Virus record (IMG/VR): IMGVR_UViG_3300020446_000003
Coordinates: 1 to 64,000 of that record
Direction: 5' to 3' (one strand)
Origin: a virus
DNA: 64,000 bases
Under the pieces are notes generated by a model. The model was not told the DNA's origin. It ran no database searches and saw nothing but the letters and a program-made list of their open reading frames with translations. Below, one piece after another: positions 2,491-37,811 of the stretch (the first letter of the stretch is position 1; the number at the start of each line of letters is the position of its first letter). A program made the position numbers and the translations under genes.

Positions 2491-4482
2491 ATGGCAGATT
2501 ACGGACCATTAGGTGGAGTTAAAATAGCGGGATTTATTTCGCCAGGTGATACTACAGATACTTATGCAGTTATTGATACCCAGTTAGGTATCGATGGATT
2601 AAGAAACTATAGTGGTAATACTAATGACGTTTTAACTGGTACTACCGTACCTTTACCGAGAAGAAGACCTGGTATGATTGTAGGTACGGAAAGTGGTGCA
2701 AGATATTTTAAATTAAAAGATAAAGACCCTTACGATTTTGACTTAACGGATTGGGATGAAATATTTTTTAGTGGTGGTGGATCAGGTTCCGCAATTACTG
2801 GTGGTACATATAGTGCAGGTACTTTAATATTAACCAATGGGACTGGAGGTACAATAACTGTCACCGGTTTCTCTTCAGATAATATTTACGTAACTGGAGG
2901 TACTGTGAGTACAGATGGTTTATTATTTTTAAATTGGAATAATGGTGGTACTGCTAACCCTATTGATTTATCAGATTTAATTTTTACTGGAAACACATCA
3001 GGAAATTGTATTACACAATTATTTGTTAAAAAGATTAGTGGGTGTACGGGAGAAGATTTACGTATAGGAGTCCAACCAGGACAAGATATATATTTTGATT
3101 CTACAGGTTCTACTACATCACCTTCATTATATATAAATCCAAAAGGACAAATTGGTGTTGGTACTAACACACCTTTTAGTTGGGCAACTAATGACGGTAC
3201 AGGTATAGAAGTTCATAATGATAGTACTAATGATCAGATACCATTAGCATTTACTGAATTAGGAACAAGAAGATTTTTCTTTGAGACTGATTTTGCCAAT
3301 ACTTCTAATCCAGTTCATATAAAAGGTAGTAGTAGTACTAATTTAATGACTTTTAATACTTCATCCTCTTCTGCGAGAGTTGGGGTAGGTACTACTGTAC
3401 CAGATGGAACATTTCAAATTGCTAAAGCAGGTTCAATTGCAAACCAAACTAAATATCCTGATGAGACTAATATAGTAATTAATAATACAAGTAATGGGTT
3501 TAGTGGTTCAACAGGTCCAAATAGTGCTGCATTTAGATTCGATCATGGAAGTGGTGAGGATCCCGGTGGTTTAATTATATCTAAAAGACTACCTGTATGG
3601 GATAGTGGGGAAAAAAGTACTACGTTAGAAATTTGGAATGCTTCAGGAGAAACATTATTTAAACGTATTGAAATTCAACCCGATGGTCATACCACAATAA
3701 GTGGTGATACATTTATTGGGGGTAATTTAAGAATATTAAATATTGGTAGTGGTACACCTATCGGTAATTTAGGTGTGGATATTAATGGTAATGTTGTTAC
3801 AGGTACAACTGGAGGTGGTGCTACGGGCACAACAGTTACCGCCTATACCTATAGTAATAATAATTTCACAATTAAACAAAGTGGTGGAGAACCTGACTTA
3901 ACTGCAAATATTAGTGTGGTAACAGGATTAACTGTTAATGGTGGTTTTAATGTTAATGGAGAATCTATTTTTAGTGGTGATAGTACAGATGTAGTAAAAA
4001 TATTTGGATCAGGCAATACCTCACCTTTATTTAGTGTAGAGGGTTCGGTTGGGGAATTATTCACAATCACAGATAGTTTAACTGGACAATTATTTGGTGT
4101 AAATAACGTATCAGGATTACCTATTTTAGAAGTCTATGACGACAATACTATATTGATGGGTAGTAATTTATCTCCTTCGTTAAACACAACTATTAAACAA
4201 ACTATTAATAGTGGTCAATCTACATTATATAGTATACCTATTAGTGCATATACAGGAGCATTTTTTGAATATACTGCCAAAAACACTGCGGGTGTTAGAG
4301 CAGGATCTATAATGTCAGTATTTAGTGGTAGTTCTGTAGAATTTAATGAAACAACAACAAATGATATTGGTAGTACAACCAATTTAACATTTGATATGAG
4401 TGTGACGGGTACGTCAGCAAATTTATTAGTATCTGCAACTACAAATAATTGGGAAATAAAAACAATAATAAGAAGTATCTAA
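2491..4482 (+). CDS. Tail fibre-like repeat protein, 663 aa
   Basis: The first 100 residues (MADYGPLGGVKIAGFISPGD onwards) are unlike later fibre repeats and probably dock the protein. The remainder is made of beta modules: the VTGG-T strand pair, a two-Cys module around residues 170-187 (C-I-T-Q-L-F-V then G-C-T-G), a GQIGVGTNTPF-type segment as found in S74-associated fibres, and a GTPIGNLGVDINGNVVTGTT module near 418-440. The last two kinds recur in the 2549-aa protein, and the two-Cys module also in the 2141-aa one. The C-terminal 100 residues contain an N-terminal-like sheet segment and end INNxWEIKTIIRS-like, without a chaperone domain. The gene follows its neighbour by 27 bases and ends one base before the next ATG, so it is co-transcribed. 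Confidence 0.75.
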   Translation: MADYGPLGGVKIAGFISPGDTTDTYAVIDTQLGIDGLRNYSGNTNDVLTGTTVPLPRRRPGMIVGTESGARYFKLKDKDPYDFDLTDWDEIFFSGGGSGSAITGGTYSAGTLILTNGTGGTITVTGFSSDNIYVTGGTVSTDGLLFLNWNNGGTANPIDLSDLIFTGNTSGNCITQLFVKKISGCTGEDLRIGVQPGQDIYFDSTGSTTSPSLYINPKGQIGVGTNTPFSWATNDGTGIEVHNDSTNDQIPLAFTELGTRRFFFETDFANTSNPVHIKGSSSTNLMTFNTSSSSARVGVGTTVPDGTFQIAKAGSIANQTKYPDETNIVINNTSNGFSGSTGPNSAAFRFDHGSGEDPGGLIISKRLPVWDSGEKSTTLEIWNASGETLFKRIEIQPDGHTTISGDTFIGGNLRILNIGSGTPIGNLGVDINGNVVTGTTGGGATGTTVTAYTYSNNNFTIKQSGGEPDLTANISVVTGLTVNGGFNVNGESIFSGDSTDVVKIFGSGNTSPLFSVEGSVGELFTITDSLTGQLFGVNNVSGLPILEVYDDNTILMGSNLSPSLNTTIKQTINSGQSTLYSIPISAYTGAFFEYTAKNTAGVRAGSIMSVFSGSSVEFNETTTNDIGSTTNLTFDMSVTGTSANLLVSATTNNWEIKTIIRSI

Positions 4483-34685: not shown

Positions 34686-34844
34686 CTATTTAAGTATTTC
34701 TCCATATAAATCTTTTTTGGGTATACATTTCTCTTTAATTATTTTTTCCACAAATGCAAACATTTTCAATCCATTTTCCTCACAATAAGTTTTTAATAAT
34801 AAATGAGTTTTAGGGGTTATTTTTAGATTTTTAGTCCTTTTCAT
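34686..34844 (-). CDS. Ribbon-helix-helix regulator, 52 aa
   Basis: A 52-residue frame from ATG 34844-34842 to TAG 34688-34686, placed antisense between two structural genes. The protein starts MKRTKNLKITPKTHLLLKTY and fits the ribbon-helix-helix pattern: a short strand (KNLKIT), helix 1 (PKTHLLLKTYCEENG) and helix 2 (KMFAFVEKIIKEKC). This is the Arc/MetJ-type DNA-binding fold, which works as a dimer on short half-sites. Three AGTATGA half-sites lie 17-47 bases upstream of its start, so autoregulation is plausible. It may also act on the sheath promoter beyond them. The fold assignment is by pattern; the small size is normal for the family. Confidence 0.75.
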   Translation of the reverse strand: MKRTKNLKITPKTHLLLKTYCEENGLKMFAFVEKIIKEKCIPKKDLYGEILK

Positions 34845-34860
34845 AGTTGTTTTTTATATA

Positions 34861-34891
34861 AGTATGATAAAAGTATGAAAAATATCATACT
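34861..34891. promoter_or_regulatory. Putative operator for the RHH regulator
   Basis: AGTATGATA (34861-34869) and its inverse TATCATACT (34883-34891) flank another AGTATGA (34872-34878). The first two same-strand half-sites are 11 bases apart, about one helical turn, as expected for side-by-side RHH dimers. The site lies between the RHH gene and the late-type motif of the sheath gene. Confidence 0.55.
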
Positions 34892-34938
34892 AAATATCTT
34901 AATATTAAAATAAATCACTTACTTTCAAAAATAATTGC

Positions 34939-34952
34939 ATATTTATAATAAA
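34939..34952 (+). promoter_or_regulatory. Putative late promoter of the sheath gene
   Basis: ATATTTATAATAAA lies 36 bases upstream of the sheath ATG. The leader is A-rich with no Shine-Dalgarno sequence, typical for abundant proteins in Bacteroidota and their phages. Confidence 0.55.
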
Positions 34953-34988: not shown

Positions 34989-37811
34989 ATGGCTTCAACA
35001 AATAGAATTTTCGTTAGTCCAGGTGTTTTTACATCAGAAAAGGATTTAACATTCGTAACAAGACAAGTGGGGGTAACTACTTTAGGGTTACTAGGGGAAA
35101 CTCCTAAAGGACCAGCATTTGAACCAGTATTCATCTCAAATTATGATGAATTTACTTCTTATTTTGGTGGTTTAGATCCTGCTAAATATAAGGGCAACGG
35201 ATACCCAAAATTTGAACTTAATTATATTGCGAGATCATTTTTAACTCAGACTAACCAACTTTATGTAAGTAGAGTATTAGGTTTATCTGGTTATAAAGCA
35301 GGAAATGCGTGGTGTATCACTTTAGACGCAGCTGCAGACCCTTCAACGGCAGCATCGGCAAGTACATCTACTTTTACTATGACATACAGTGCTAGTACAG
35401 GAGGTTCACCACTAACATTAGACTTTGATAGTGCAATTCTACAAGAATTATATGATGAAGGTGAAATTAGTAGTAGTTTTAGTGATTTAGGTTTAAAAGG
35501 AACTGGTGATACTATATCTATTTCTACACCGGCATATATAAAAGTAGGTACAACATTTTCAGGTGCTACTTTTGACTTAACTATAAACTCCACAGGATCT
35601 GGTAGTACTACTTCATTTGTAACTGGTAGTACAACAGGTACAGTAGTTACTTATACGGCATCTTCATATGGTATTGATGGTAGTGTAGTGGCAACTTTAA
35701 GATCTAGAGGTAATTATGGTGGAGACCAAATATTAGATTACACAGTATCAGGTATAACAGATGCTAGTATGACAAATACCTCCGCTATTGTAACTAATCC
35801 ATTTGGTAACTTTACTATAAGTGGTACGACAAGTAGTGGTAATGATTTTGATTATAATGTTTCATTAGATAGAACTAAAAAGAATTATTTACCTAACGTA
35901 TTTGGTGTTTATGCACAAGATAAAGAGACTGAACTTTTCGTAGAGGAATTATTCATTAATAGTTTAGATGATTTAAACACCGCAGGAAAAGTTAGAGGTT
36001 TAGATATTACGTTCCTTAGAATTAGTGGAGATTCAACTAATAACCTAAGTAACTATGAAGAAAAATATCAATCAGCCGCTTCACCATATGTTTTATCAGA
36101 ATTAAGAGGTAATAAATTACAAAGATTATTTAGGTTTATTACAATTTCTGACGGTGATGCAGCAAACAGAGATATTAAATTCTCAATTATTAATATTAAA
36201 CCAGATGATAAGACATTTGATTTAATAGTTAGAAGGTATAATGATACAGACGCTAATTTAAGTGTTATTGAGAAATTTTCTAAATTATCATTAGATCCGA
36301 GAGATAATGGATTTATTGGTAGAAAGATAGGTACTTCAGATGGAGAGTTTCCATTAAGAAGTAATTACATAATGGTAGAGATGGCAACAGATTACCCAAC
36401 TAACGGTATTCCAGCAGGTTTTGAAGGTGTACAAGTTAGAGATTACATAGGTGATAGAACGGCATTACCACCACAAATAGAATATGGAACAGAGTATCCA
36501 TCACTAAATAATTCACAATTAAGAAGATATTATTTAGGTCTTAACACAACTATTGGTGTGGATCAAGATTTCTTCGATTATAAAGGTTTAGATGCAGTTA
36601 CTAACTTAGCATATACAGGTAAATCAGATGGTTTCCATTTAGACGTAAATGCAGAAGGTGCTGAAATATCAGCGGGTGACGATAGTTACTTCCCATCATT
36701 ACAAGTGGGGATTTCAGCGTTTACTACTGAAGCTTCACTAGTAGGTGGACCATATGAAAAAGTAAGTGCTAGAAAATTCACATTTGCACCTTATGGTGGT
36801 TATGATGGATGGGATGTTTATCGTTTAGATAGAACAAATACTGACGCATACACTAAAACTGGAAGTAAAGGTAGTGAAGGATTAACTAATGGTACGTTTA
36901 CTACTTATACAACATCAGAAGGTGATGACGGTATTACTTCTGACTACTACGCATACTTAGAAGGTATTTACACTTATAATAATCCTGAAGCAGTTAACAT
37001 CAACGTATTTGCAACTCCAGGTTTAGACTTAAGAGATCAACCTTCATTAATTGATGCGGCAGTAGATATGGTTGAAAATGATAGAGCAGATTCATTATAT
37101 GTAATTACTACTCCTGATACGGATAGTTCTGGTGAAACTGTTTTAACTACGGATGAAGCGGTTGATATATTAGACGATTCCGGAATTGATAGTAACTATT
37201 CTGCAACTTACTTCCCTTGGTTACAAATGAATGATACAGAAAACAATCAGTACATTTGGTTACCACCAACTTTAGAAGTTGTTAGAAACATTGCTTTAAC
37301 GGATAACGTAGCATTCCCTTGGTTCGCAGCAGCTGGTTTAAACAGAGGTACAACAAACGCAATTAAAGCTAGAACAAAATTAACCTTAGATCAAAGAGAT
37401 GATTTATATGAAGGAAGAATTAATCCAATGGCAACATTCTCAGATGTAGGTGTTTGTATTTGGGGTAATAAAACCTTACAATCTAAAGATACGGCACTTA
37501 ACAGAATTAATGTTAGAAGATTGTTATTACAAGCTAGAAAACTTATTTCGGCAGTATCTATTAGATTATTATTCGAACAGAATGATGATGTTGTAAGAAA
37601 TCAATTCCTTTCATTAGTTAATCCAATATTGGATAATATTAGAAAAGAAAGAGGTTTAACTGACTTTAGAGTTGTATTAGATGATACACCAGAATCTATC
37701 GACAGAAATGAATTAAATGGTAGAATATTCATTAAACCGACAAGATCTTTAGAGTACATTAGTATTGAATTTAATATTACTAATACTGGAGCATCTTTTG
37801 ATGATATCTAA
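34989..37811 (+). CDS. Tail sheath protein (gp18-like), 940 aa
   Basis: Contractile sheath subunit. The N-terminus FVSPGVFTSEKDLTFV is the classic sheath start, followed by TTLGLLGETPKGPAFEPVFI. The C-terminal domain carries FPWFAAAGLNRGT, DDLYEGRINPMATFSDVGVC and IWGNKTLQS, then NVRRLLLQARKLISAVSIRL and FVVLDDT-like segments, ending with an IEFNIT strand. These are shared across T4 gp18 and other sheath proteins. It is longer than T4 gp18 (659 aa). The extra material is mainly at about residues 110-300, a Ser/Thr/Gly-rich beta insertion probably exposed on the tail surface. A strong terminator follows directly. Confidence 0.93.
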   Translation: MASTNRIFVSPGVFTSEKDLTFVTRQVGVTTLGLLGETPKGPAFEPVFISNYDEFTSYFGGLDPAKYKGNGYPKFELNYIARSFLTQTNQLYVSRVLGLSGYKAGNAWCITLDAAADPSTAASASTSTFTMTYSASTGGSPLTLDFDSAILQELYDEGEISSSFSDLGLKGTGDTISISTPAYIKVGTTFSGATFDLTINSTGSGSTTSFVTGSTTGTVVTYTASSYGIDGSVVATLRSRGNYGGDQILDYTVSGITDASMTNTSAIVTNPFGNFTISGTTSSGNDFDYNVSLDRTKKNYLPNVFGVYAQDKETELFVEELFINSLDDLNTAGKVRGLDITFLRISGDSTNNLSNYEEKYQSAASPYVLSELRGNKLQRLFRFITISDGDAANRDIKFSIINIKPDDKTFDLIVRRYNDTDANLSVIEKFSKLSLDPRDNGFIGRKIGTSDGEFPLRSNYIMVEMATDYPTNGIPAGFEGVQVRDYIGDRTALPPQIEYGTEYPSLNNSQLRRYYLGLNTTIGVDQDFFDYKGLDAVTNLAYTGKSDGFHLDVNAEGAEISAGDDSYFPSLQVGISAFTTEASLVGGPYEKVSARKFTFAPYGGYDGWDVYRLDRTNTDAYTKTGSKGSEGLTNGTFTTYTTSEGDDGITSDYYAYLEGIYTYNNPEAVNINVFATPGLDLRDQPSLIDAAVDMVENDRADSLYVITTPDTDSSGETVLTTDEAVDILDDSGIDSNYSATYFPWLQMNDTENNQYIWLPPTLEVVRNIALTDNVAFPWFAAAGLNRGTTNAIKARTKLTLDQRDDLYEGRINPMATFSDVGVCIWGNKTLQSKDTALNRINVRRLLLQARKLISAVSIRLLFEQNDDVVRNQFLSLVNPILDNIRKERGLTDFRVVLDDTPESIDRNELNGRIFIKPTRSLEYISIEFNITNTGASFDDI

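Follow-up and report, generated by a model that had tools for sequence, protein, structure and literature searches.

The amount and timing of structural proteins in tailed phages are usually ascribed to shared late promoters. The locus described here raises the question of whether one structural gene, that of the tail sheath, has a regulator and an operator of its own. It lies in a 64,000-nt stretch of viral DNA (the window; positions 1 to 64,000 of the 97-kb IMG/VR record IMGVR_UViG_3300020446_000003). An initial annotation had proposed that a small RHH regulator encoded on the minus strand acts through adjacent half-sites as an autoregulated switch between its own gene and a late promoter of the sheath gene. 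The 52-aa frame at 34686-34844 (minus strand) and the AGTATGA copies at 34861 (plus), 34872 (plus) and, inverted, 34885 (minus) are exactly where they had been placed, and the late promoter, put at 34939, was correct to within one base, with TATTTATA at 34940-34947. The interval given, 34686-34891, was too short, as it ends at the operator and the functional unit appears to extend to the sheath start codon at 34989. The locus has the following features.

34686..34844, minus strand: RHH regulator gene, 52 aa (MKRTKNLKITPKTHLLLKTYCEENGLKMFAFVEKIIKEKCIPKKDLYGEILK), start at 34844; predicted protein parts are the DNA-contact strand K5-N6-L7-K8-I9, helices 11-24 and 28-39, and the conserved C-terminal tail D45-L-Y47-G
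34845..34860, minus strand: 16-nt gap between the operator and the RHH start codon
34861..34891, no strand: whole 31-bp putative operator, single copy in the 97-kb record
34861..34867, plus strand: half-site 1, AGTATGA, RHH-proximal
34872..34878, plus strand: half-site 2, AGTATGA, left arm of the core palindrome (20 bp), offset from half-site 1 by 11 bp
34885..34891, minus strand: half-site 3, inverted AGTATGA, which completes the core palindrome as its right arm after a 6-bp spacer
34922..34925, plus strand: CTTT element, -35-like part of the putative sheath promoter, 18-15 nt before TATTTAT
34940..34947, plus strand: TATTTATA, -10-like element of the putative sheath promoter, late-promoter motif wATATTTATwA
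34989..37811, plus strand: tail sheath gene, 940 aa (Pfam PF17482, PHROG 23)

A conserved gene for a small RHH protein

The 52-aa protein, used as the clade 1 query, has 304 relatives among IMG/VR candidates, and a query from a second clade (clade 2) found 313 relatives in IMG/VR, which may overlap with the first set. Compared with twelve relatives, the gene has a dN/dS of about 0.01-0.2; these values and the more than 300 relatives rule out a spurious ORF. As judged from these comparisons, the frame at 34686-34844 is a real gene under strong purifying selection. The protein measures about 49-56 aa across relatives. In an alignment of 55 diverse members, four residues of the DNA-contact strand (K5, N6, K8 and I9) do not vary, nor do H14, L17, K18, C21, K27, E33 and I36. 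Beyond the RHH core, the tail motif D-L/I-Y-G-D/E is present in 54 of the 55, the exception being a nuclease-fused spare copy.

PHROG, PDB profile and fold searches agree with the proposed RHH/Arc type. PHROG 582 (phrog_582, Arc-like repressor) was matched by 45 of the 55 members (best E 2.8e-5), Pfam returned sub-threshold RepB-RCR_reg matches only, and SvtR (2kel) was the top RHH entry in the PDB by profile (E 0.0039). It was preferred over the SUMO-2 entries, which match over a short helix. The AlphaFold monomer has helices at 11-24 and 28-39 and an extended N-terminus at moderate confidence (mean pLDDT 77, pTM 0.40); it lacks the strand, which is expected in the dimer only, and a single chain was folded. 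The single-sequence fold was poor (pLDDT 71). Foldseek searches with the model returned mostly Arc, ParG, CopG, AvtR, ORF56 and NikR, led by Arc (1b28), with weak E-values (best 0.3) because the protein is small. In an ungapped alignment, N6 and K8 presumably correspond to N11 and R13 of Arc, and the two proteins have EENG in common. Sequence comparison thus places the 52-aa protein in the RHH/Arc-like fold class.

Linkage to the tail sheath gene

We found the RHH gene divergent to a sheath gene at 80 of 80 protein-found loci (the 80 best matches), with sheath identity ranging from 100% to about 45%. A DNA search for three half-sites with free spacings (core spacer of 4-8 allowed) gave 76 new loci, all of which adjoin a sheath gene, with sheath identity as low as 32%; many of these loci are closely related, and the raw counts overstate their independence. 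The RHH gene is present in 75 of the 76, and the remaining contig is cut off too soon to judge. No relative with the sites but without the frame, which the initial annotation had named as evidence against it, was seen in these 76 independent loci. As had been proposed, nearly all relatives read have the half-sites in the interval from RHH gene to sheath promoter. DNA has been inserted between operator and RHH gene at four loci (L087, L108, L106 and L143), where the gene is displaced from the operator by 130-500 bp and the placement of the operator relative to the sheath gene is unchanged. By these sequence comparisons, the linkage of RHH and sheath genes is exclusive.

No match to the RHH protein was found in cultured phages at E 0.1. 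The nearest cultured sheaths are those of Microcystis phage Mel-JY01 and Flavobacterium phage immuto; in both, same-strand genes lie upstream of the sheath gene and the RHH gene and operator are absent, and none of 83 loci from Mel-JY01 relatives has an RHH gene of the same family or the operator. The best cultured matches of the phage DNA polymerase are Salinibacter phages, at 24%. Among 84,980 genomes, the RHH protein had one match, on a 51-kb contig of the Prochlorococcus single cell AG-409-L21. We rejected a host or prophage gene, as this contig coincides with an IMG/VR virus record. L243/L009 (QCKH01000012.1) is a near relative of the phage on the AG-409-L21 contig; the cell may be its host, or the virus may have been co-sorted with it.

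A single operator of fixed architecture

Read on the RHH strand, the operator is AGTATGA-N6-TCATACT-N4-TCATACT (31 bp). Taken singly, AGTATGA is not enriched in the window (10 copies, 14 expected). It is the sole G/C-containing 7-mer in the 64 kb that has three non-overlapping copies, on either strand, inside 31 bp; order-1 Markov simulations gave a mean of 0.17 such clusters for any such 7-mer. All 76 matches of the free-spacing search are exactly 31 bp long with a core spacer of 6 bp. Across 45 non-redundant copies, the 21 half-site positions are near-invariant and the next 30 bp drift, and the A-rich linker between half-sites 1 and 2 is conserved. L142 and L177 have a mirror-image operator whose extra half-site faces the sheath gene. 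The gap to the RHH start codon is 13-18 nt in most relatives and 26-27 nt in three. The 16 nt found in the window are too short for a promoter, so the operator would have to overlap the promoter or start region of the RHH gene.

A pattern search for AGTATGA pairs elsewhere in the phage genome, suggested by the initial annotation, came back empty: TCATACT-N4-TCATACT, with at most one mismatch, occurs once or never per record (20 records, 97-369 kb). Other near-matches to the core palindrome almost all have two mismatches and look like background. We rejected AGTATGA as a genome-wide regulon signal, its count in the window being at chance and the operator occurring once per genome. Control of the most abundant tail proteins, as first suggested, narrows to one sheath-adjacent operator per genome, with the exception of a duplicate in G017. 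There, the promoter-operator-RHH block is duplicated 2.3 kb away, before a gene for a 567-aa structural (fibre-like) protein (L348, G017:199500-206500; core operators at 1523 and 3846), and the second operator lacks the RHH-proximal half-site.

Co-variation of half-sites and RHH protein

Clade 2 proteins begin with MENKQKNVKI versus MKRxKNLKI in clade 1, and their operator, which occupies the same place, consists of AAAGATA-N6-TATCTTT and, in steps of 10 bp, one or two more TATC half-sites. The spacing of about one helical turn, noticed from the window alone, is a property of a conserved operator (11 bp in clade 1, a 10-bp step in clade 2). Half-sites that change together with the protein are expected if the RHH protein binds the operator, and sequence comparison of the two clades indicates that half-site and DNA-contact strand co-vary. 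The clade 2 sheath promoter (for example in L244 and L245, upstream of the RHH gene) also has a dyad, ATCTTTG-N7-CAAAGAT. An AAAGATA half-site in this clade overlaps the sheath TATTTAT (ACAAAGATATTTAT) and may give the RHH protein a second site on the promoter itself.

Helical phasing with the putative sheath promoter

The motif wATATTTATwA is found in gene orientation upstream of 17 of the 35 window genes, with 0.8 expected, and is likely the late-promoter motif of this phage group. It usually lies about 20-50 nt before the start codon and is common to relatives of Mel-JY01. These relatives, an outgroup without the RHH gene, keep TATTTATA before the sheath gene. The TTT of the CTTT element does not vary among the 49 non-redundant regions and has the same position in clade 2. 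From this motif conservation we infer that the sheath promoter is CTTT-N14-TATTTAT, and we assigned its start accordingly. The combination is not exclusive to the sheath gene, as it occurs at 1-5 further places per genome. We also considered CTTT as an RHH half-site and rejected this, because its position is fixed to TATTTAT, not to the operator, in both clades.

The distance from the operator end to TATTTAT, counted with the mirrored loci L142 and L177 excluded, is 48 (155 loci), 49 (10), 47 (7) or 38 (16) in clade 1, and 37 (74 loci) or 38 (6) in clade 2. The non-redundant clade 1 regions gave 48 (34 regions), 49 (8) and 38 (3). Distances between 38 and 47 occur in neither clade. A protein that acts from one helix face would need spacings one DNA turn apart, as found here. 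With TATTTAT as the -10 element, the core would be centred near -71 or -61 of the expected sheath start. Class I activator sites for CRP have a 10-bp periodicity, with positions -61.5 and -71.5 (PMC10882989), and the integral-turn spacing of such activators is found here (37-38 or 47-49 bp to TATTTAT).

Perfect dyads with arms of 8-13 bp and lineage-specific sequence lie between operator and CTTT in about 15 of 45 regions (for example L086, L135, L138, L192, L064 and L129) and are absent elsewhere, including the window. They are not terminator-like, as no T-run follows the hairpin.

Fusions of the RHH protein to GIY-YIG nucleases

At five distinct loci, the gene adjacent to the operator encodes a GIY-YIG domain fused in frame to the RHH protein:

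L106:992-1456, minus strand: GIY-YIG-RHH fusion under the RHH operator
L143:1538-1987, minus strand: GIY-YIG-RHH fusion under the RHH operator; the protein recurs in a second contig
L142:327-821, minus strand: GIY-YIG-RHH fusion under the RHH operator
L177:5119-5622, plus strand: GIY-YIG-RHH fusion under the RHH operator
L202, around 3858-4438, plus strand: GIY-YIG-RHH fusion under the RHH operator

PF01541 matched the fusions with E-values of 2.1e-5 to 2.7e-4; three of the four scanned passed the curated cut-off. Comparison of the loci showed the nuclease to be present or absent at one site. A separate RHH gene follows in L106, L143 and L202, where the fused copy lacks the tail motif. The fusion is the only RHH protein of the contig in L142 and L177 and retains the tail motif; a single protein there seems to be regulator and nuclease at once. 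L034 and L035 have tandem RHH genes upstream of 5001, the first being a GIY-YIG-RHH remnant with the nuclease mostly deleted. The fusion likely arose when a free-standing homing nuclease acquired the resident regulator for DNA binding, and the missing tail in the fused spare copies fits such a capture. We found no paper on a GIY-YIG-RHH fusion in the open-access literature.

A model for the locus and its alternatives

We propose that the locus is a single-target module whose regulator represses its own gene and, from a constant face of the helix, controls the sheath promoter as well, a reading to which we assign a probability of roughly 0.7 from the sequence comparisons above. Paired N-terminal strands (KNLKI) of an RHH dimer would read the AGTATGA half-sites, and dimers would occupy the core palindrome (half-sites 2 and 3) and the extra half-site 1 toward their own gene. 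With 13-18 nt between operator and RHH start codon, bound protein should cover the promoter or start region, and the resulting self-repression would keep the amount of protein constant. This complex, whose core is centred about 71 bp or, in other lineages, 61 bp before the expected sheath start, would also act on CTTT-N14-TATTTAT from a single fixed face of the helix. Either the transcription machinery or adjacent dimers probably make contact with the tail D-L/I-Y-G-D/E. The strict geometry and the presence of this tail in 54 of 55 members make us slightly favour activation of the sheath promoter over repression of its early expression. Co-variation and helical phasing support regulation of both the RHH and the sheath gene.

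One alternative, possible although we would not expect it, is an SvtR-like repressor of both genes, in which self-repression is followed at a higher protein level by spreading that delays sheath synthesis. SvtR, the closest solved RHH relative by profile (2kel, E 0.0039), represses its own gene and the structural gene gp30 (tail fibre), binding about 80 nt upstream of the promoter and possibly spreading from there (PMC5569661), and the clade 2 AAAGATA overlapping the sheath TATTTAT (ACAAAGATATTTAT) would suit a repressor. However, clade 1 has no extra AGTATGA half-site near the sheath promoter, spreading alone does not demand strict 10-bp steps, and a late promoter that depends on phage late factors would need no early repressor. 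It is improbable that the operator serves the RHH gene only and that the fixed distance to TATTTAT reflects a promoter toward that gene. The closeness of the operator to the RHH start codon (13-18 nt) would fit, and TATTTATA read backwards gives TATAAATA on the RHH strand, which we take to be the T4 late motif. Yet TATTTATw is directional (17 of 35 window genes have it gene-oriented, versus 10 reversed), the outgroup without RHH retains TATTTATA before the sheath gene, and a shift of the RHH gene by 130-500 bp leaves the operator with the sheath gene.

The core is also a perfect 7-bp inverted repeat in which the clades differ by paired changes, as would be expected if AGTATGA-N6-UCAUACU folded into a hairpin in RNA and governed translation or decay, with an incidental RHH protein. 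We consider this extremely unlikely: the clade 1 arms are near-invariant, without compensatory drift, like a protein site; a hairpin would leave no role for the additional direct copy, which lies 11 bp away in clade 1 and 10 bp away in clade 2; and the arrangement is mirrored in L142 and L177. Hardly more plausible is a selfish-element remnant, in which the RHH protein came from a homing nuclease and was kept only for immunity or autoregulation. The fusions at the same operator in five distinct loci point in this direction, but the stand-alone RHH protein is the rule (80 best matches) and is under strong purifying selection, whereas fusions are rare, with spare copies that lack the conserved tail, fitting capture of the RHH protein by the nuclease.

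Returning to the dual-control module, its most specific form is a phase-locked RHH activator-autorepressor for the sheath gene in a large lineage of uncultured phages, which homing nucleases captured as a DNA-aiming domain, such that one operator would control regulator, nuclease and sheath; in this full form the proposal is tentative. The RHH family is known; what would be new is a dedicated, single-target, phase-locked sheath regulator and its capture by nucleases. The sheath gene would then be one structural gene with its own regulator and operator, kept over hundreds of genomes while the flanking DNA drifts. The two clades, which differ in half-site and correspondingly in protein, offer a natural experiment on minimal DNA reading by a beta-strand, and the fusions suggest a direct route by which a selfish nuclease may obtain an aiming domain and promoter control from a resident regulator.

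Comparison with known systems

The protein resembles SvtR of the archaeal virus SIRV1 in being a viral RHH protein (SvtR has about 56 aa) with a structural gene as its probable target. It differs in that SvtR works with archaeal transcription machinery, has several sites in the genome and binds an unrelated sequence. To our knowledge, SvtR is not divergent to its target in a fixed helical phase. Arc of phage P22, which controls the ant operon of a temperate phage, is the top fold match (1b28) and the namesake of the matched PHROG (phrog_582), but has a different operator, and the target here is the sheath gene of a contractile tail. E. coli NikR, another RHH protein, binds GTATGA-N16-TCATAC (PMC7055735), and its half-site GTATGA comprises six of the seven bases of AGTATGA. 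Here, the spacer is N6 instead of N16, there is a third half-site, and the protein of about 49-56 aa has no C-terminal nickel domain; the resemblance of the half-sites is likely due to chance. AvtR of the archaeal virus AFV6 is likewise a viral RHH protein that regulates itself and a neighbour, as it represses its own gene and activates the neighbouring gene at low and represses it at high concentration (PMC5569661). Unlike the protein described here, AvtR is a tandem RHH in one chain, and its target is another RHH gene. The fusions resemble T4 I-TevI and the seg nucleases in combining a GIY-YIG nuclease with its own DNA-binding domain, and I-TevI is both nuclease and autorepressor, acting via an operator over its late promoter (PMC2988022). 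They differ from both in having as DNA-binding module an RHH domain that a resident phage regulator also has.
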